Source: Candidatus Roseilinea sp. (GTDB taxonomy: Bacteria > Chloroflexota > Anaerolineae > J036 > Brachytrichaceae). From it: a DNA stretch of 64,000 nt. Of the stretch, positions 14,011 through 24,432 are shown piece after piece. The translations under genes were made by a program, and so were the position numbers. Numbering within the stretch: the stretch's first letter is position 1; every line of letters begins with the position of its first letter. The notes under the pieces were generated by a model that saw only the letters and a list, made by a program, of their open reading frames with translations, had not been told where the DNA came from and ran no database searches. Where the stretch lies: assembly GCA_026003755.1 (NCBI GenBank), contig BPHV01000001.1:124001-188000 (forward strand). The letters are read 5' to 3'.

Positions 14011-17001
14011 TTACGATATTTCTCGCTTGATCCGACGGCGAATCACCGCCCACAGGCTGAGCAGCACCAGATGCGCGAGAGCCCCGACGGGCAGCCTTCC
14101 CATGCCCTTCCACAGCGTTGTCGGTTGGGTGGCGCCGGGGATGCCGATCTGTTCGGCCGTCCAGGCCGAGTAGCGCACTCGCCCTTGCTCAGGCGCTTCA
14201 CACAAAGCGCGCACCTTGAAGTGATAGGCGACGCCGTCCTTCAACCCTGGGATGAAAAGACGCGTTGTTGCCTCCACCTGTTGCGTTTGCCAGGCGGTTT
14301 CGTCTTCTCGCCGAAAGGCGACTTCATAACCGGTCGCCAAATTGCCTGGTGGTGCGTCCCACACCAACACCACGCCACCTGACACAGGGTTGCACAAAAA
14401 CGCGGTCGGAGGTGAGAAGGGGGGCGGATCAATCAGCCGTTGCCGGCGCGCCTCAGCCTCACACGAAGCACGGAGGGATTCAGCAAGGTCCGCTTCGATC
14501 CCTGCAGGTGCGTGATGGATCACTGCTCCGGGGGGGTAGAAATGCAAGCCGGCGTCTGTCTGGATCCTATCGGGTGGCGCGTCGCCCGCATAAGGGGCGA
14601 GCATGAGCGAGAAGCGTAACGTCTGCCCATTGTAGGACGGACCGTTAGGCCTGAGCGCACCGCTAAAGGCAGTCAGCAAGCGTGCGCCGATGCCGTTACC
14701 GCCTAAGTGTTGGTAATCCAACATTCGGCCATAGTAAGAGCCGAACGGGTTGAGCGAGAGCACTTGCTGATGTTGCACTTGGCGCAGGCGCATGGGGCAA
14801 AAGGCCATGGAAGCGAGCGCGCTGGCATCTTGTCCAACCAATAACCCCATCTGGCCATCGGAGACGGCGACCCATCCATTGGTGACTTGATGGTTGAAGG
14901 CGTCGAGCTGGCCGTTGCGAGGATTGATCGCCCCGTAGTTCAAATCGTAGTAAGCAGTGATCCCCAGGTAGTTATGCTTCCATACGCGCAGCGGTCGTCC
15001 CGGGTGCGGGGTGAGGCGTGGCGTGATCTGAAAGGGCGCTGTCTCGATCCAGTTGAGGTCCATCAATCGGCGCAGCTTTTGGATCATGTTGTGAATGACA
15101 TCGGTCGGCGGCGTGTAAGCGTAGCGCACCGTCGCATCCACGTAGAGATAGGGCAGGGCGTCAAACAGGGTGAAGACGAAGATCAGTTCGCTCTCGTAGT
15201 TTCCCCTTTGCGTCTGCATCGGGATCGTGGTGCGCAGACATACGCGCTGTAGGCCGTCCCAGGTTTCATCGTTCAGCGGGCACAAGCTAAACCCTGCGGT
15301 CGGATAAGTCACCCGGCGCGAACCGTCCTGGTAAGTGATAAATGGTTTGAGAAAGTCTGGGCCGCCAATTTCACGCCCAAGGTAACGGAAGGACGCAATG
15401 CCGCTTTGGGTTGAGAAGAAGATTTCGAGCCACCGGTTGCGCAGTTGTGTGAGCGTGGGGGGTGGCGTCAGGGTGGCAGCCGATGGCAACAGGCGGTAGT
15501 CGTAATCGGCCTGATCACCTGTCTCGGCTACGAAGCGCACATGGCCTTGCTTTCTTCCGTCGGGCAACACGCGCACATCCGTCAGCGATGCTGGGACGGG
15601 CGCGCCGCTGGCGTGCTCCAGCCGAACCGTCGCGATGTCGCTGGGCAACACGACGGGCAAGGACACGGCGACATGCCCCTCTGGGATGGGCTGATGGCGC
15701 CGCGGTGGCGCGGGCACCAACTCGAAGGCATAGAGCGCGGTCGTCTTAGGGAGGGGGCGTGTGGCTTTTCGGACGCGGGCAGCGCGACGCTCGGCAGCTT
15801 CAGCGCGTGCGGCAGCGTTATTGAGTAACGCTAAAGCGCGCGCTTGGCGTTCCTCGTTAATGATCGGTGTGGACATGCCGAAATGGGTGGTTGAGAGGCC
15901 GATGAGCCGCTGGAAGAAAACCGAATCGCTGCCTTCCCACAACACGTTGCTCAGGTCGAGGCCGCTGCGTTGGGCCAACACTTCGGCGCGCAATGAGGCA
16001 AGGCGTGAGCGTTCTAGCGCGGTCCAGGCGAGCAGGCTGGAGAATTTCTCCGCCCACGAGTAATTGCCGTCAAAGCCGCCATCAGCTAAATCTTGACGGA
16101 CGAGCACTTCTCGCCGTGGCGGGTGGTTGGCTAGGTAGGCTGAGGGGACTGTCAGCTCCGCCCACGGGTATTTGTGGACGACGCGCAGGTATTCCTCGAT
16201 CCCGCCGGTGTTGGGGAACCAACGCAAGAATCCGGGCAGGCGAACCGGAAGCCAGGTTTCTAAGTCGGCATCGGCGTTGAGGTGCACCAGCACATCGGAA
16301 CGAATCTCGCCGCGCTGCTGCCGCGCGTGCAGGTCGAGCATCAGGTCTTCCAGGGAGACGAACTCGAACAAATCGGTCAACCCCAAGCAGGGAAAGAGCA
16401 CGAGCGGCGGCTGGTCCTCTCGTGTGCGGAACCACAAGGGGTTAAAGCGATCTTCCACAGGTAGCGGTGGAAGGAAGGCGCCCAGCGTGTTGAACGGCGT
16501 CAGGCTGTAGTAGAGCAGCACTCCCTCGATCCCGCAGGCTTTGAGGAGCGCCTCATGGCCGGTGGTGAACATGCACTCTTGCGGGCGATAGAACGGTGCG
16601 ACGCGGCCAAAGAGCTGTTTCAGCCCGCTCCCCCAGGGATTTTCAATGGCCCACGTCACCGCTGCCCTGAACTCGTCGGGCGTGGCGGCGTGGTTGGCGC
16701 CGTTGTTGAACGGCCCCAGGATGATCTCGTCCATGCCGGCCGATACCCGCGCGCGAATCCGCTCCAGAATGTCCGGGCAGTGTTCGGGGATGATCGTTTG
16801 GAGGGTCCAGTAGGCGTCCACATCCCAATAGACGCGCGCCGTCATGCCGGCGGCTTGGGCGTGGTCGAGGATGTCCAGTATTCCGCGGATCACGCGCATG
16901 TCCGTGCCGAAGCCGGCCTCGTCCGGCGTATCCCCACGCCACGAGTGATAAAAGTTGACATGCAATCCCAGCGTGACGTATACCTTGAAGTTGGTCTTCA
17001 C
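14011..17001 (-). CDS. Large glycosidase-like protein (GH38/GH57-type barrel) with fibronectin III domain
   Basis: A 996-residue protein without signal peptide. The N-terminal 400 residues resemble the deacetylase/glycosidase barrel shared by GH38 and GH57 ([32 protein letters not shown]). The middle is a beta-rich region. A fibronectin type III-like module occupies roughly residues 860-960 ([20 protein letters not shown]). The last 35 residues contain a hydrophobic stretch followed by RRRIKREIS, a possible tail anchor. Substrate is unknown, and catalytic residues cannot be assigned with confidence. It stands alone between pncB and an aldehyde dehydrogenase relic. Confidence 0.6.
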
Positions 17002-17065
17002 TTCGCTTTCTCAAGATGGACCAGGGGCGTCCACGTATTTACCTGGATTGTATGGCTTGACTATC

Positions 17066-17548
17066 ATGGCGCTGCAGTTGCTCCATCTCTATTTCTATCA
17101 GCGCCGTGCGCCTCGCATTCTGCGCCTGCATGCCGTCTTCCCGCGCCTGGGCCTACTGCGCGCCCATCGGATCGCTGCGCGGCCGGGCGGCGTCATCGGC
17201 ATCATCGCGCCATGGAACTATCCGTTCACACTGAGCATGAAACCGCCGATCGCGGCGCGGGTGGCCGGCAATGCCGTGGCGCTCAAGCCTAAGGATGCTG
17301 CCGTTGTCCTGGCGGATGTGCCTCTCGATCAAACCGCTTAAAGGGGGGTGTGGGATGCGTTGCTCAATGCGAGTCAGGCTTGCTTAGCCATTGAGCGCCT
17401 CTATGTCGAAGCCAGCATCGCCGAGGCGTTCGTCCGTGAGCTGGTCGAGAAGGCGAAGTCCCTGCGCGTCGGTCCGGCGTCTGATCCGGCCAATCAGGTT
17501 TGCGCTATCCCACCGAGGCGCAGATGGCTACCATGGAGGCGCGAGGAT
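17066..17548 (+). pseudogene. Aldehyde dehydrogenase relic
   Basis: Two pieces of an ALDH-superfamily protein are separated by a stop near 17339. The first has the NAD-site motif [19 protein letters not shown] and then GNAVALKP. The second starts at about 17350 and has the catalytic-Cys region ALLNASQACLAIERLYVEAS. Roughly 100 residues between them are missing, including the Rossmann GxTxxG and the catalytic Glu. A further frameshift is visible near 17500, where TEAQMATMEA continues in another frame. The C-terminal third is absent. It is clearly non-functional. Confidence 0.85.
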
Positions 17549-17648
17549 GGTCCTAGACGCGGTAACGGCTGAAGATTTGCCCCTGAGGCGAAGCACCCGG
17601 CGGGGTCCTGACAATCTGGGATGGCGCGATGGCGTGGATGAGCGCCGC

Positions 17649-18401
17649 TCATCGTTGCCTGATCGGCTCGACCTGAACGCGCCCGCTGAGGATGCGGTAG
17701 ATCGTGAGGAACCATACGCTGCCGCCAGCACCCCAGTAGACTGCTTGCGCCCATCCTTCGGAGCTATCCGTCCCGCTGCTCAGGCCGTGCCACAGGATCA
17801 TGGCGAACACAACGAAGCTCAGGTAGTGAAGGAGACGCCAGACGCGCTGCGTGATCAACCGTCGAACGTAAAAGGTGAACGTCACCACTACCATCAGATA
17901 GAACCCCACTTGTCCCAGTCCGACCTCCAGTGGCCGATAGCCCTGGCTTCCAAACGGCCGCAGCACCTGTTCCAGGGTGTAACCGATGTAACGATCACCC
18001 AGCAAAATCAGCGCATGGAACAGCGCAAATGCCAAACCCAGTAGGCTAACAAACTGGTGCAGTTCAAAAGCGATGAGATGCCCCGGCCAGGTGCGCGCCA
18101 GTTTGCCCGTCATCAGTAACCCGAAGACCGTGGAAAGCCAGAGTAGGCCGAAAGCGACAAACCCGCTGGCCCGCGATAGAAACCAATATGCCTTAGGGGA
18201 TTCACCCGATGCTGACTGGGCCAACGCGGGTAAATACTGTGGCAACAGCACGATTGCCAATCCAGCGCCAGCCGATGCGGCTATCAACATCGCCAGCAAC
18301 AGTGTTGGCGCATCCGAACGAGCGTCTAGGTCAATTTCTGGCCTTAGCCTTGAAGCTGAATCTCGCTTCGATGTGGGCTGGGGAGTAAGAGGTTGTGTCA
18401 T
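17649..18401 (-). CDS. Ferric-reductase-like transmembrane protein
   Basis: A 250-residue integral membrane protein with about six helices. It resembles the ferric reductase-like transmembrane domain (MsrQ/YedZ and NOX relatives) that holds b-type heme. Candidate heme-ligand histidines lie in HLIAFELHQFVSLLGLAFAL, FHALIL, LLHYLSF and ILWHG. It has no FAD/NAD domain, so it would need a partner electron donor. It follows apbE by 28 bp in the same operon, suggesting flavin- and heme-based electron transfer across the membrane. MsrP-like sulfoxide reductase is not found here. Confidence 0.8.
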   Translation of the reverse strand: MTQPLTPQPTSKRDSASRLRPEIDLDARSDAPTLLLAMLIAASAGAGLAIVLLPQYLPALAQSASGESPKAYWFLSRASGFVAFGLLWLSTVFGLLMTGKLARTWPGHLIAFELHQFVSLLGLAFALFHALILLGDRYIGYTLEQVLRPFGSQGYRPLEVGLGQVGFYLMVVVTFTFYVRRLITQRVWRLLHYLSFVVFAMILWHGLSSGTDSSEGWAQAVYWGAGGSVWFLTIYRILSGRVQVEPIRQR

Positions 18402-18429
18402 CGCGTGTTCGTGAGAACGATGTTTTGTT

Positions 18430-19362
18430 TCAGACCATCTGCACGGCTGAGTTGGGTGTGCTAATGATTCGACCGTCTTCGCAGACCAACAGCGCCATCA
18501 TGTTGCCCTGTTTTTCTATCCAAGCGAGCCCGGCCTCGCTTCCCAGGATGACGGCGACTTTTGCTGCTGTCTCTGCTTGCACTGCGGTGGGGGCGATCAC
18601 CGTCGCAGTTAACACATCGGTTTGCGCCGGCTGGCCTGTGCGTGGGTCAATCAGGTGATGGACCCAGCGGTCGCCGATGCGCCAGCGCCGATAATCGCGG
18701 CCAGAGGTGGCTACGCCGCCGGCTTGCAGGCTGATGACCCCTAATAGGGCGTCAGGCGTCGTCGCGGCGTTGGCCGGCGCTGCGATGCCGATGGGGAAGT
18801 CGGTTGCCCTGTCGGCTGCCGACACGATGGCTATGTCGCCGCCGGCGTCCACCAACGCCGGCCCATAAGCGGCCAGCCGACGGGCTGCCTGCTCGGCGCA
18901 CCAGCCCTTCGCCACGCCTCCTAGGTCCAGCAATACCCCGTGTGGCAACCTCACGGCGTGGCGGGTGGGATCTGCTTGGATCCTCCGCCAGCCGTCTGGG
19001 TTGCTCGGCGGCGCGTAAGTCAGCACGACAATATCATCACGGGACATCGCTTCAAACGGAAGCGCATAGCCGATGGACTGCATCGCGCCGAGCACGGTGG
19101 GGACGACCAATCCTTCAGTACGACGCGCAGCGTCTAGCGCAACATGCAACACTTCCCACAGGGTCGGGCTGACTTCCACCCATTGACCGGTTCGCGCGTT
19201 CAAGCGGCTGAGTTCACTGTCGGGCCGGAAGCGGCTGAGCTGGCCCTCCCATGCCGCAAACCACACCGGCACGTTGCGCAGTAGGTCGGTTGCTGCGTCC
19301 CCGGGAGCATCCACGACGGCACGCATTTGGCAGCCCATAGCGCGGAAGGCGATCTGTTGCAT
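18430..19362 (-). CDS. apbE: FAD:protein FMN transferase (ApbE family)
   Basis: A 310-residue ApbE-family protein that attaches FMN covalently to Ser/Thr of target proteins, using FAD and a metal. Motifs are AMGCQM at the N-terminus, LLDLGGVAKGWCAEQAARRL, LVDAGGDIAI and WVHHLIDPRTGQPA. The usual metal-site stretch DALSTA is replaced by AETAAK. No signal peptide or lipobox is visible, so it may act in the cytoplasm. Four bases separate it from the upstream small membrane-protein gene. No textbook flavinylation motif was found in the neighbouring proteins, so the substrate is unknown. Confidence 0.88.
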   Translation of the reverse strand: MQQIAFRAMGCQMRAVVDAPGDAATDLLRNVPVWFAAWEGQLSRFRPDSELSRLNARTGQWVEVSPTLWEVLHVALDAARRTEGLVVPTVLGAMQSIGYALPFEAMSRDDIVVLTYAPPSNPDGWRRIQADPTRHAVRLPHGVLLDLGGVAKGWCAEQAARRLAAYGPALVDAGGDIAIVSAADRATDFPIGIAAPANAATTPDALLGVISLQAGGVATSGRDYRRWRIGDRWVHHLIDPRTGQPAQTDVLTATVIAPTAVQAETAAKVAVILGSEAGLAWIEKQGNMMALLVCEDGRIISTPNSAVQMV

Positions 19363-19366
19363 GGCT

Positions 19367-19822
19367 TCAACGCGAGGATCGCGTTATCGCGACAGGACGG
19401 GGCGGTGGTGGTGGAGCAGCGACCACGCGTAGCTGCATCTGCGGTTGGGCTGGAGCCGGCGCGACCTGCGGTGCGGCTTGCTGCGGGCGAGGGGCCATCG
19501 CCGGCGGCGCAACGTTCTTGCTTGGCGCTGGGCGCTCCATGTTTATGCGTTTAGGCATATACAGCGGTGCCAGCGTGGGCAGCGGTTGGGAAACCGCCGG
19601 CAGGGAGGTGGCGACGACGTCAAGCGTGGGTGGCGGCGAGGGCAGGTCGGTTGGTTCTGCCGGGACCAATCCTGCCGTAGCAGCCTGTTGATGGCTGAGC
19701 CAAGCCCATCCAACTAATGTTGCAGCCAGTGACAATGAGCCGATCAGCGCTTTCAACGCTGTCGCCTGCTCCTGCTGTGCATCACGACCGGCGGATTCAG
19801 GGCGCAGTGCATCAGTCGTCAT
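19367..19822 (-). CDS. Small membrane protein with Pro/Ala-rich tail
   Basis: A 151-residue protein of unknown function. One hydrophobic segment lies at about residues 22-42 (ALIGSLSLAATLVGWAWLSH), followed by a long Pro/Ala/Gln-rich extracytoplasmic or flexible tail. ATG at 19822 is chosen. The frame is open upstream only because it runs through the low-complexity repeat of the preceding gene. Its start overlaps the end of the PepSY gene by 11 bp. Position in the operon suggests a role in the same redox complex, but this is inference. Confidence 0.6.
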   Translation of the reverse strand: MTTDALRPESAGRDAQQEQATALKALIGSLSLAATLVGWAWLSHQQAATAGLVPAEPTDLPSPPPTLDVVATSLPAVSQPLPTLAPLYMPKRINMERPAPSKNVAPPAMAPRPQQAAPQVAPAPAQPQMQLRVVAAPPPPPRPVAITRSSR

Positions 19823-20600
19823 GATCCTTCTTCTCCTTCTTCTCCTTCTTCTCCTTCTTCTCCTTCTTCTCCTTCTCCTTCTTCTCTTTGTGCTCTTTGT
19901 GCTCTTTGTGCTCCTGCTCCTCGTGTTCCTCCTCGTCATCGTCGTCGTAGTAGAAAGCCGCTGGCGACTGTGGTGACCATGCGCCGTTGTAGAGAACGGC
20001 GCCGCTGTTAGCGTCTACGTACACCATACCGGTGTTGAAGGGCACCTCGTATGCAATCGCGCCTTGGAAGTTCACCAACTCCGGTAGCCGCTGCGCTGCT
20101 GCGCCCGGGGCACTGGCCTGGGCAATCTCCAGCGCGCGTTGTGCCGAGATCGCAACTGTGGGCGCAGCGCTTTGTGGTGGTGCCGATACGCCCTGAACTT
20201 GGGCCTGAGCCTGGGATTGAGCCACGTCGGCGGGCGCCATGACAGGTTCGGCTTGGGCCTGGGCTAATTGTTCGAGCTGCCTTTCCATCTGCGCTAACTG
20301 TTGATTGGCTGCCTGAATGCGCTGGTTGGCCTCCTGAATCAAAGCCTGATACTGCGCTTCACGTGCCTTGGCCGCTTCGACCTCGGCCGAGGTCGTCGTT
20401 GCAGGCGCCGATGTCGTTGCAGGGGGCACAGGGGGAGCGATGACTTCTGCCGGAGCGTCTGCGGTTGGCGTTGGCATGGGCGGCGTGAGCGTGATGCTCA
20501 ACTGGCCGGCCAGCGCTCCCAGGCCGACCAGTGTAAATGCGGTCACGCTACCCGCGATCAGCAGCGCTGTGCGTTGATTGATGGTTCGTCCTTTCATCAT
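19812..20600 (-). CDS. PepSY-domain protein with acidic/lysine-rich C-terminal tail
   Basis: A 262-residue exported or membrane-anchored protein. A single N-terminal helix (LLIAGSVTAFTLVGLGALAG) is followed by a Pro/Thr linker and a coiled-coil stretch (EAQYQALIQEANQRIQAANQ). A PepSY-like domain follows (ISAQRALEIAQASAPG, GMVYVDANSGAVLYN). The last 45 residues are Asp/Glu then His/Lys/Glu repeats. ATG at 20600 (or the adjacent 20597) is chosen because AGGAG lies 4-7 nt upstream. It heads the operon with the small membrane protein, ApbE and ferric-reductase-like protein. Confidence 0.72.
   Translation of the reverse strand: MMKGRTINQRTALLIAGSVTAFTLVGLGALAGQLSITLTPPMPTPTADAPAEVIAPPVPPATTSAPATTTSAEVEAAKAREAQYQALIQEANQRIQAANQQLAQMERQLEQLAQAQAEPVMAPADVAQSQAQAQVQGVSAPPQSAAPTVAISAQRALEIAQASAPGAAAQRLPELVNFQGAIAYEVPFNTGMVYVDANSGAVLYNGAWSPQSPAAFYYDDDDEEEHEEQEHKEHKEHKEKKEKEKKEKKEKKEKKEKKDHDD
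19826..19918. repeat. Coding micro-satellite (TTCTCCTTC-type and TTTGTGCTC repeats)
   Basis: The 3' end of the PepSY gene is built of repeated TTCTCCTTC-like units and three TTTGTGCTC units (plus-strand reading). They encode the KKEKKE and KEHKEH tail. More than one reading frame is open across the stretch, so slippage would alter the tail without always stopping translation. Confidence 0.8.
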
Positions 20601-20723: not shown

Positions 20724-22305
20724 GGGTCTATTTCAGTTTGGGGGCGAAGAATAGGCAGCAGACCACATCGCGTCAAAGGCGTGACCCATGACGGCCGCCC
20801 GAATCGGGAGCAGACGCTCGATGCCGGGACGGCTCCAGCGCATCCCGCTACCGGCGAAGCGATGACGGAATTGCTTGCAGGCGCTCTCGACCACGCCGCT
20901 GCCGATCGGCCAGCCATCTTCGCGCAGGCTCTGGTATTGCATGCGTCGCCGGTTGTTCCCGAAGTAGCCCGCTTCACGCCGTAGCATCTCGGCGTGCTGG
21001 GGATGGGTATGGGCGGCCTGACGGAGTCGAGCCGCAATCCGGTCGGCATGGCCCTGGAACAAGAGGGTTTCGTGGGCACGATACCAAGCCTGGGCCGCCG
21101 GGCTGCCTGCTGCGTGCAGGCCGTGAGCAACCTGCCACAGATGCTGGCTGGCGTGATACCAGTCCACGGCTTGTCGGCTGTCGTAGAAGTGCTCGCTGAG
21201 CAGATTCCAAATCCACGCGGCGCCATCGCCCAAGGCGATGGTGTCACGTGCCTGCGTCCAGCCGCGACGTTGGGCGGCCGTCCACAACACCTGGCCGAAC
21301 CGTTCCGGCCCGCCCAGATGGGCGACGTAGCCGGCGCGGACGGCGTGGGCCGTGTCAACCCACTCCTCGCTCTGGCGATCCCAAGTCGGCTGTAGCACGA
21401 CATCGAACACGCACCCCACCTTGAGTTCCTTCCAGCCTTCGCCACGCACATGAACCGTTGCTCCGTCCAGGGCGACACCCATCTTGCCCGGCACGGTCGC
21501 CGCCTCGGCGGTGCGCCCGCCGCCGTCCGCCAGGGCGCGTTGTGTGGCTTCTACCCCCCGAAAGCGCTCTCCCCATACCGCCACCCGCCGCCACACACTG
21601 CTGTCGGACATGACCAGCCCGCCCACCTGTCCCAGGATGCGCTCCGCTTCCTCAAACGTCACCAGCCCGCTCAGCCACACCGCCTGCTTGGCCACCTGTT
21701 CGCTCCAGTGCTTGTCCCACACCGCCAGCTGCCGATCGAGGGGGGAAAAGCCCGACGCGGCAGGCTTCACAGTAGTAGTATCCTCGCTGCACGGACAGGC
21801 TGCCCACGCGGCTCTCGACCGTGTTCCGCTTGCGGCCTTTGGAGTGCATCTCCCGCCCGCACTGCGGACAGACCGGCCCCGGCACCGGGCGGCTCGCCTC
21901 TTGCGCCTCGATCACGGTGACCGCCATCGCCTCGCTCATCCGCTTGCGCAGCTTCAGGATCACCTCCTCGATCTGCGTCAGCGTCGGCTGGCCGGCCTGT
22001 TCATTCCAGTCCAGCAATTCATCGATCACGGCCTCCGCTTCTCGCATCAGCACCGCTTTCATCTCGCCTCGCCGTGGCGAAGACGCTGACTTGCGCTGTG
22101 TCGTCGCCCTGGTCTCTTTCATGGCACACCTCCCGGATATAACTGTCCTCGCATTATGCCCGCAGCGGCCTGCGGCTTGTCGTCCCTCGCTGAGATGCCG
22201 GTCTGTCAATCCACGACGACGTCCGTGATCTTCGGATGTTCACGCGGGCGAGGTCAATCTGCGCGCTTTTTGAGTGCGCTCCTGCCCCAAAACTGAAATG
22301 CACCC
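20724..22305 (-). mobile_element. ISKra4-like insertion sequence, 1582 bp
   Basis: The element is bounded by imperfect 22-bp inverted repeats. The left end is 20724-20745 (GGGTCTATTTCAGTTTGGGG then GC). The right end, 22284-22305, reads GGGTGCATTTCAGTTTTGGG then GC on the other strand. The ends are flanked by an 11-bp direct repeat, CTCGGAGACAA. Inside is one transposase gene in two frames. It inserted between the divergent PepSY operon and response-regulator gene, leaving 19 bp between its right duplication and the regulator ATG. Confidence 0.92.
20733..22122 (-). pseudogene. ISKra4-family transposase, split by a +1 frameshift
   Basis: The first frame starts at ATG 22122, with GGAGG 6 nt upstream. 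It encodes an N-terminal part with a zinc-binding CPQCGREMHSKGRKR...CEAC region, and its own frame stops at 21652. The second frame (open from 21770) carries the catalytic part ([58 protein letters not shown]) and ends at 20733. Continuity of homology switches at a CCCCCC run (plus-strand G6 at 20740+1000, i.e. 21740-21745) and needs a +1 shift. This may be programmed frameshifting, a real mutation or a homopolymer error. If shifted, the protein would be about 460 residues, normal for the family. Confidence 0.85.
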
Positions 22306-22335: not shown

Positions 22336-23013
22336 ATGCGCGTGCTCATCATCGAAGATGATCAGCAGTTGGCCCAACTCATCGCACGTGCGCTACGGCG
22401 GGAAGGCATTACCGCCGATTTGGCCTATGACGGTGAGACCGGGCTAGAGATGGCGCTCAGCGGAGCATACGACGTTGCAGTTGTGGACTGGATGCTGCCT
22501 GGGCGCAGCGGTCCGTCTATTTGTCTCGCTGTGCGTCGCGCGCGGCGCCCCTTGCCTGTGCTCATGCTCACCGCGCGTGGGCAGATCGAGGATCGCGTGC
22601 AGGGCCTAGATAGCGGCGCTGACGACTACTTGGTCAAGCCCTTTGCCTACGAAGAATTGCTGGCACGCTTGCGTGCACTCAGCCGCCGCTATGACATCGC
22701 CAGCCCCGATGGCACCGAGCTGCGCTGCGGTGACCTGCGCATGAACTTGGCCGAGCACCGCGTGTATCGCGGCGACACACTGATCGAACTCACACCGACC
22801 GAGTGGGAGTTGCTGGAATTTCTGATGCGCAATGCCAATCGCTCGCTCAGCCGTGAGCAAATCTTCAATCGCATCTGGGCCGCGGAGAGTGATGCGCAGC
22901 TCAAGATGGTGGACATCTACATCTCCTACTTGCGCCGCAAGTTGAATACTGCGCCTGGCTTGCCTGAACTGATTGAAACCGTGCGTGGCATAGGATACCG
23001 CCTGACATGCTGA
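22336..23013 (+). CDS. OmpR/PhoB-family response regulator
   Basis: A 225-residue two-component regulator. The receiver domain (residues 1-115) has the acidic pair in IIEDDQQLA, phospho-acceptor Asp in VAVVDWMLPG, Thr in LMLTARG and Lys in LVKPFAYEEL. The C-terminal winged helix has LTPTEWELLEFLMRNAN and the recognition stretch VDIYISYLRRKL. It overlaps the kinase start by 7 bp. An IS element lies immediately upstream and probably separates the gene from its native promoter. The divergent PepSY/ApbE operon is a likely regulatory target. Confidence 0.95.
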   Translation: MRVLIIEDDQQLAQLIARALRREGITADLAYDGETGLEMALSGAYDVAVVDWMLPGRSGPSICLAVRRARRPLPVLMLTARGQIEDRVQGLDSGADDYLVKPFAYEELLARLRALSRRYDIASPDGTELRCGDLRMNLAEHRVYRGDTLIELTPTEWELLEFLMRNANRSLSREQIFNRIWAAESDAQLKMVDIYISYLRRKLNTAPGLPELIETVRGIGYRLTC

Positions 23014-24432
23014 GCGAAAGGCAGTTGCTCAATCGGCTACGCCTCTGGCTCACCGGCGTTTACATCGCCGCTGCGTTAAGTTTTATTGTGATTTTGGCCG
23101 GGCTGAGTGTGGCGCTGCTGCGCTTTTACTTTCAAAGCTCCATAGATAGCTCCTTGCGCAATCGCATGGCGCTGGAGTATGCAATGCTGGGTGTGCCCAT
23201 ACCTGCTGAGCTGGAGCGCTCATACCTGGAGTGGATGCGCTTGCGCGCTCCGGTGTTCGCCCCTCCGGTTAAGGGCGAACACGATCGTGAGCCCGGCGAG
23301 GCACAAGACGAAGAGCACGACGATGAGGAAGCGTTGCATAGCTACGCACCTGGCAACTCCAACAACCCATTGGCCGCGCAGGGCAACATGCCGGTCGAGG
23401 ATTTGGTCAGCGTATTCGTGATTCGGCTGGACCCGACAGGCCGGGTGCTCGTCCCCTCCGCCGTAGCGCCGGCCGGCTTTAGCCCCAATCTCGACGCAAT
23501 CGCAACCGCCCGCCGCTATGGCGTAGACTGGCGCACGGTCTGGACCGTCACCGGCGAGCCGGTTCGCCTGCTCACCTACGCTGTACAGCAACCCCATGTC
23601 ACGCTTTACCTCCAAGCTGGTCGTTCTCTTCTCGAGCAAGATGCCATCGCGCGCCAGTTTGTCATCGGCTTGCTGCTGGGCGGCGGGATGTTGGTCCTTG
23701 TGGCGGCTTGGGTAAGCTGGAGCATAGCCGGCCGCGCGATCCGGCCGGTACGGGAGACCTGGGCGCGTCAGCGCGAGTTTATTGCCAATGCCAGCCATGA
23801 GCTGCGCGCTCCTCTCTCGCTCATTCAACTAAGCGCTGAGTTGGCGACTCGCCCCGACACACCCCCGGATGAACGTCGGGAGCTGGCCGGCGATGTGTTG
23901 CGCGAAACACGCCACATGATCAGGTTGGTGAACGACCTCTTGCTGCTCTCGCGCGCCGACGCCGGCCGGTTGCCGCTTCGCATCGAGGGCTTCCCGTTGC
24001 AGCATGTGCTGGACGACCTGGCCCGTATCTGGGGGCGTGCGTGTGCCGAGCACGCCCTCACGCTTGAAGTAGAGCCGACGGCGGCCAGTGTGCGCGCCGA
24101 TGCAGACTATGTGCGCCACGTGCTCATGAGCGTGCTGGACAATGCCCTGCGCTATACCCCGCCCGGCGGGTCGCATTCGCCTGCAAGTTGCGCCGCGTGG
24201 TCGCTGGGTGGACATCACTGTTAGCGACAGCGGACCGGGCGTTCCCCCTCAGCACCTTCCGCACATATTCGAGCGTTTCTATCAGGCTGATCCGGCCCGC
24301 AGCGACAAAGCGCATGCCGGCTTGGGGCTTGCCCTTGTGAAGACCTTGGTCGAGGCGATGGGCGGCCAGGTGCGCGCGGACAACAGCATTGCGGGGGGTC
24401 TTATCGTCACAATCTCCCTCGCTGGGGGATAG
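23007..24432 (+). pseudogene. Sensor histidine kinase, frameshifted in the ATPase domain
   Basis: The 5' frame (23007-24224, 405 codons) has two membrane helices around a periplasmic domain rich in E/D/H, the H-box (FIANASHELRAPLSLIQLSAE) and the N-box (VLDNALRYTPPGG). It then goes out of frame. The rest of the ATPase domain continues in another frame to 24432: VDITVSDSGPGVPP, IFERFYQADPARS, GLGLALVKTLVEAMGGQV. One extra base in the GGG at 24168-24170 explains it. As read, the kinase lacks its ATP lid and would be inactive. A sequencing error cannot be excluded. Confidence 0.88.

Follow-up and report, generated by a model that had tools for sequence, protein, structure and literature searches.

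In a 64,000-nt stretch of the genome of Candidatus Roseilinea sp. (assembly GCA_026003755.1, contig BPHV01000001.1, positions 124,001 to 188,000; hereafter the window), we analysed a four-gene minus-strand operon encoding a PepSY-domain protein, a membrane "linker", an ApbE-family protein and a ferric-reductase-like membrane protein (FRD). As judged from sequence and gene content, the linker, here called the tail protein, forms a conserved module with FRD and a subfamily of ApbE proteins lacking a signal peptide, and the operon probably encodes a unit for flavin- and heme-based electron transfer across the membrane, with the tail protein as the likely substrate of ApbE. Such a unit had been proposed in the preliminary description of this DNA; its ApbE/FRD core, with an exported single-helix partner, held up, whereas PepSY proved to be only an accessory. 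A wider reading, for and against which the arguments seem to us about evenly balanced, is that tail proteins are a widespread class of fold-less flavoproteins: flavin mononucleotide (FMN) would be esterified to a Ser at most three residues from the C-terminus of a disordered, membrane-tethered arm, attached in the cytosol by a metal-site-variant ApbE, and the arm would carry the electrons of a two-heme FRD outside. Because FMN would be attached before the arm is exported, no export of flavin adenine dinucleotide (FAD) would be needed.

A check of the open reading frames (ORFs) bore out the tight packing noted earlier, neighbouring genes overlapping or lying at most 28 nt apart: the PepSY (261 aa) and linker (151 aa) ORFs overlap by 11 nt, ApbE (310 aa) follows the linker after 4 nt, and FRD (250 aa) follows ApbE after 28 nt. 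The features of the operon are as follows.

17649..18401, minus strand: FRD, ferric-reductase/MsrQ-like membrane protein with about six transmembrane (TM) helices, four invariant His and no NAD domain (PF01794, His alignment, low-confidence AlphaFold2 model)
18430..19362, minus strand: ApbE-family protein without signal peptide, with metal-site motif AETAAK (PF02424, E-value 2.5e-52)
19367..19822, minus strand: tail protein ("linker"), N-terminus inside, one TM helix, Pro/Ala-rich arm of about 100 aa and conserved C-terminus (AlphaFold2 model; recurrence beside ApbE)
19370..19384, minus strand: C-terminal tag T147-R148-S149-S150-R151, codons ACG CGA TCC TCG CGT, with S150 as the proposed FMN acceptor (tail motif in 112/144 loci)
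19812..20597, minus strand: PepSY protein with one TM helix, a coiled-coil-like stretch, a PF03413 domain (residues 149-202) and a K/E/H-rich end (Pfam; alignment)

The tail protein and its C-terminal tag

The tail protein of the window has no Pfam or NCBIfam family match, and AlphaFold2 models it as a single helix (residues 9-50) with an unstructured remainder, in which confidence recovers only in the C-terminal ~20 residues (block means 67, 79 and 62). Its end, RSSR, recurs upstream of ApbE in proteins that are otherwise unalignable. To survey such ends, a tail was defined as a TM ORF ending between -220 and +45 nt from the start of the ApbE domain and having the C-terminus [ST]..S.{0,2}, and the rule was applied to 144 ApbE loci (L037-L180). 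For the most part these are the loci that match the window ApbE best, weaker Chloroflexota matches being left aside. A tail stood beside ApbE in 112 of the 144 loci, as against 47 of 960 TM ORFs elsewhere on the same strand that satisfied the rule; a 113th hit, in L118, was a false motif at the end of FRD and was dropped. Seven tails were added by hand (L106, L112, L041, L073, L047, L048 and, as a separate tail beside FRD, L118), and the resulting set of 119/144 was used for the FMN_bind association test, the ApbE tree and the count of loci without tail given below.

Across phyla, only the one TM helix and a C-terminal tag of the form [ST]-[RGSK]-[SGA]-S-(R/K) are conserved in the tail protein. 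The rule itself fixes the acceptor, the residue at -3 and how far from the end the tag may lie; at positions free of it, 56 of the 112 tails have Arg and 31 Gly at -2, 61 have Ser and 29 Gly at -1, and Pro occupies -7 in 81. The acceptor is Ser in 112/113 cases, although Thr was allowed. By charge, 103 of 112 tail proteins are predicted to have their N-terminus inside, and the outer part (median 80 residues; flexible arms of 25 to 356 residues in the sample) consists to 78.5% of P, A, S, T, G, Q, N and V. In two loci, L146 and L173, the tail is fused to a cytosolic NAD(P)H/FAD/2Fe-2S reductase (FAD_binding_6, NAD_binding_1 and Fer2) followed by a TM helix, a linker and an SGVS or SGTS end, which fits both the proposed topology and a role in an electron-transfer chain.

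The tag reads as a loosened form of the known ApbE motif [ST]GA[ST]. The window end TRSSR fails the standard pattern D-x-x-[ST]-G-A-[ST], keeping only [ST]xx[ST] and having no Asp; near-canonical ends occur elsewhere (SGAS 1/113, SGGS 16/113, TGGS 5/113). The preliminary description had already seen no standard flavinylation motif in the operon, correctly, since none of its proteins contains the full pattern, and had rightly recorded the Pro-rich stretch of the linker and the K/E/H-rich tail of PepSY. Its view of the former as a mere linker gives way here, the conserved tag being the best candidate for the ApbE target.

A signal-less ApbE subfamily with an altered metal site

The window ApbE exceeds the PF02424 cut-off, matches FAD:protein FMN transferases in the PDB at 2e-22 and keeps the HH.IDP and TSG motifs. 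At the metal site, AETAAK replaces AD..[AS]T, so that D..T becomes E..K. The metal ligands of the Escherichia coli enzyme are D280 and T284 (PMC4767422; here and below, published work is cited from the passages bearing on the point), and equating the E..K columns with these residues rests on the motif and on alignments. In the 112 tail loci the pair is E..K in 86, D..K in 11 and N..T in 11, with three other types once each and one sequence cut off; a D..R pair belonged to L118, the dropped hit. Canonical D..T enzymes occur in 5 of the 144 loci, and none of these five loci has a tail; the canonical ApbE is accompanied, for example, by an FMN_bind-like protein containing VSGATLT in L054 and by DUF2271 in L067 and L068. 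As canonical controls, these five, L067 and L068 among them, were supplemented by seven further plasmid loci. In a tree of 152 ApbEs, from which L053 was left out as a short sequence, a branch supported at 97 separates off the 12 canonical enzymes.

The open frame of the window ApbE extends the ORF by just 7 codons (317 vs 310 aa), and in 94 of 112 loci the tail-gene stop overlaps the ApbE domain or lies within 60 nt of it. With the stop so close, the tail gene itself would need to supply the codons of any signal peptide; ApbE, lacking one, is predicted to be cytosolic.

The FRD partner and the distribution of the module

FRD scores below the Pfam cut-off for Ferric_reduct (PF01794, 5.7e-5, 23.6 bits against 28), and its AlphaFold2 model shows the helices at low confidence (predicted local distance difference test score 53). 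A heme-binding fold is nevertheless supported, because H115, H129, H192 and H205 are invariant in 13/13 FRD sequences from Chloroflexota, Pseudomonadota, Bacillota, Deinococcota and Actinomycetota. FRD is encoded within 2.2 kb in 105 of the 112 tail loci.

A search with FRD, whose Ca. Roseilinea relatives are 79% identical to the window protein, led to five other loci. In all of them (5/5) FRD is accompanied by ApbE and PepSY, and BLAST recognised the linker in four. ApbE matches were found in 27 of 60 relatives and in 231 of 400 Chloroflexota genomes, and at least one tail was present in 28 of the 29 Chloroflexota families sampled in the phylum draw. The linker-ApbE-FRD core recurs across Chloroflexota and on plasmids of Actinomycetota, Bacillota, Deinococcota and Pseudomonadota. 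Gene order varies: L037 reads tail-FRD-PepSY-tail-ApbE, and PepSY is absent from L042 and L043. From 70 listed plasmid matches, 22 loci were fetched (12, then 10) by similarity and taxon spread, and 12 of the 22 had FRD and a tail. A Psychrobacter plasmid carries the same operon (PepSY, a tail ending RTRSSQ, ApbE, FRD and VIT); other tails end in TRGS (Deinococcus), TRTS (Paenibacillus), TRAS (Arthrobacter), SAGS (Rhodococcus), SKASGG (Mycolicibacterium), TAAS (Gordonia) and TRSGGS (Streptomyces), the tail gene being missing from the record's gene table in Rhodococcus (L071), Gordonia and Streptomyces. The second plasmid set contained two actinobacterial FRD loci with tails ARSAGS and TTRAS, and none of the seven further plasmid controls scanned (0/7) had a tail; the tenth locus (L195, C. 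metallidurans) lay outside the scan. The preliminary description had suggested looking for the gene set in other Chloroflexota, and would have counted a neighbourhood not conserved elsewhere against its proposal; the neighbourhood is conserved, far beyond chance.

Proposed mechanism and alternatives

From these data we infer the heme groups, the FMN and the electron flow of the operon as follows. Cytosolic ApbE would use FAD as FMN donor and modify the final Ser of the tag, S150 in the window protein, and this attachment would precede threading of the tail outward through the membrane. With quinol or a cytosolic reductase as donor, FRD would move electrons across the membrane via two hemes; for the window FRD, which has no NAD domain, quinol is a guess by analogy with MsrQ. 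Electrons would then pass to FMN at the end of the flexible arm, which would deliver them outside. The acceptor would most likely be a metal (Fe or Cu), bound by the acidic/His-rich PepSY protein and sensed by the two-component system; of the whole scheme this is the weakest part.

Several observations weigh against the tail as ApbE substrate. The acceptor favoured by canonical ApbEs is Thr rather than Ser, with an Asp six positions ahead of it (PMC12052999), whereas the tail offers Ser and no Asp. Most tail-associated ApbEs have Lys in place of the metal-site Thr and mostly Glu in place of the Asp, and with the Thr-to-Lys change transferase activity is not assured. A cytosolic enzyme acting on an extracytosolic tail requires modification before export, for which we have no direct precedent at hand. 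Of 139 non-canonical loci, 20 lack a tail, although L053, L122 and L179 among them are cut at the contig start; for L077, L078, L080 and L084, which have related E..K ApbEs, neither FRD nor tail was found nearby. Presence of a tail was not significantly linked to absence of FMN_bind in the genome, genomes without FMN_bind making up 69 of 87 with and 10 of 17 without tail (Fisher p 0.12). Finally, the loci share ancestry, and resemblance to the window ApbE was the criterion for collecting them, so that P-values overstate their independence. As to the four tail-less loci, three of their four genomes encode FMN_bind, and substrate switching is possible there.

The alternative that survives best, though we consider it unlikely, is that the tag serves in docking or sorting, being recognised by FRD, a protease or an assembly factor. 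ApbE would then act on the product of some gene outside the operon, or work as a flavin carrier in its own right. The altered metal site would suit this alternative, as would the Arg or Lys that follows the acceptor Ser in 55/112 tails and resembles a binding motif, and in L037, L038, L047, L048 and L118 the tail gene lies beside FRD, instead of or besides ApbE. It has to contend with a tag that retains [ST]xx[ST], the framework of ApbE sites, around middle residues G, A or S and is almost canonical in some lineages, and with the outcome of a search for three known substrate families: FMN_bind, DUF2271 and DUF3570 were found neither in the operon nor in the window genome (3.34 Mb, 5 contigs), which encodes one ApbE. 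FMN_bind is likewise absent from 146 of the 231 ApbE-bearing Chloroflexota genomes. Placement of the tag also speaks for the tail as target, a 7-residue ApbE tag performing best at a protein terminus (PMC12052999).

Less probable still is that ApbE flavinylates PepSY or FRD and the tail is a mere spacer. PepSY does contain a near-match to the standard motif, DANSGAV in the window, but with Val at the acceptor position, and V, I or L stands there in all 64 readable of 73 PepSY domains, never S or T; many tail loci are without PepSY, and [ST]GA[ST] is not conserved in the FRD alignment. PepSY was rejected as the ApbE target on the acceptor residue, and the Thr of its N-terminal QRTA as FMN acceptor because QRTA is not invariant. 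The notion that the conserved end arises from translational coupling, with the ApbE ribosome-binding site lying in the final tail codons, can practically be dismissed: the tail and ApbE genes mostly adjoin, at a median gap of 9 nt, but the gap is at least 30 nt in 25/113, the same ends also occur away from ApbE, and the acceptor codon is TCN in 108/113 (TCG 45, TCC 28, TCA 22, TCT 13) with a Shine-Dalgarno core inside the tag in only 10/113, the free third bases and rare cores pointing to selection on the peptide and refuting a ribosome-site artefact for most loci.

PepSY protein, two-component system and neighbouring genes

The PepSY protein, with one TM helix, matches only PF03413, at 1.9e-4 and 22.1 bits, under the 24-bit cut-off. 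Its domain was found in 16/28, 1/12 and 33/104 loci of three sets (L045 was left out of the PepSY profile), and because it occurs in part of the loci only, PepSY is taken as accessory. A response regulator lies near the operon in 22 of 28 wide loci, and PepSY and the two-component system are accessories to the core. The published PepSY-like flavin systems to which the preliminary description had likened the operon involve heme-binding PF03929/PF16357 proteins with three TM helices (PMC8238504); the window PepSY lacks these three helices, and the analogy fails because it is a one-helix protein with a soluble PF03413 domain.

The divergent two-component system of the window comprises two genes.

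22336..23013, plus strand: response regulator (Pfam)
23007..24224, plus strand: sensor kinase with an acidic/His-rich extracytosolic loop, its frame broken near the 3' end (Pfam HisKA)

In the sensor kinase region (23007-24432) the frame breaks near 24142-24224 and the C-terminal ATPase part resumes in another frame; either the gene has decayed or the assembly is in error here. The sensor loop contains a motif of the iron-sensing RExxE type, as in BqsS, a link for which a literature search found no paper; the motif is not general among relatives and was set aside as a sign of iron sensing.

Metal reduction is a likely function of the operon, and PepSY is possibly metal-binding. PepSY tails and sensor loops of relatives are acidic or His-rich, VIT transporters are encoded in the Psychrobacter and Deinococcus loci, a heavy-metal P-type ATPase gene neighbours the Streptomyces operon, which has Met-rich exported partners, and VIT1 occurs in 153/1797 MsrQ-like clusters (PMC8238504). 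Two Streptomyces proteins (L065, 4365-5650) start like Chloroflexota PepSY proteins (MK[HQ]RTALAVAGAVAA) and have Met/Gly-rich stretches and no visible PepSY domain; they are possibly copper-binding relatives.

An insertion sequence (20724-22305, 1.58 kb, with 22-nt imperfect terminal inverted repeats and a transposase in two overlapping frames, 20733-21770 and 21652-22209) separates the operon from the two-component system. It lies ~127 nt upstream of the PepSY gene, is absent from this position in the close relatives examined, and may have altered the operon promoter. On the other side, the operon is adjoined by an aldehyde dehydrogenase pseudogene (16955-17572, fragments in separate ORFs, Pfam Aldedh), and a 996-aa protein (14011-17001) has a C-terminal fn3 domain (Pfam) and an N-terminal sequence that, as an impression only, resembles a glycoside hydrolase.

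Relation to known flavinylation systems

No description of the tail or of a comparable ApbE substrate was found in the open-access PMC literature, searched by passages. One of the closest likenesses is to the MsrQ-like flavinylation systems (Meheust et al. 2021, PMC8238504), which also combine a PF01794 protein and ApbE in one cluster, sometimes with VIT. The window operon shares this pairing, at a sub-cut-off Pfam score for FRD; those systems typically include an FMN-binding-domain gene, whereas here such a substrate (or DUF2271/DUF3570) is missing, the tail protein has no domain and ApbE has no signal peptide. That survey dropped genes without a signal peptide or lipidation site. Among the FMN_red and Flavodoxin_4 substrates of ApbE (PMC11334425), FMN_red bears motif-like sequences on an unstructured C-terminal extension, as tails do, but these are folded flavoproteins, mostly from Firmicutes, unlike tail proteins with neither folded domain nor Pfam/NCBIfam match. 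The cytosolic ApbE of Klebsiella lacks a signal peptide like that of the window, but its target is a soluble fumarate reductase and not a membrane-anchored tail ending outside (PMC12052999). In the artificial "flavin-tag" described in the same source, a short motif at a protein end is enough for ApbE; that tag is engineered, and the tails would be its natural counterpart.

In the passages of PMC8238504 concerned, flavinylation surveys left "orphan" ApbEs without substrate and set signal-less ApbEs aside. The tail is a concrete candidate substrate for such ApbEs in 28 of 29 sampled Chloroflexota families and four other phyla, and this assignment predicts one modified residue per tail. If it is right, covalent flavin redox carriers need no folded domain, and a cytosolic ApbE can supply extracytosolic flavins.

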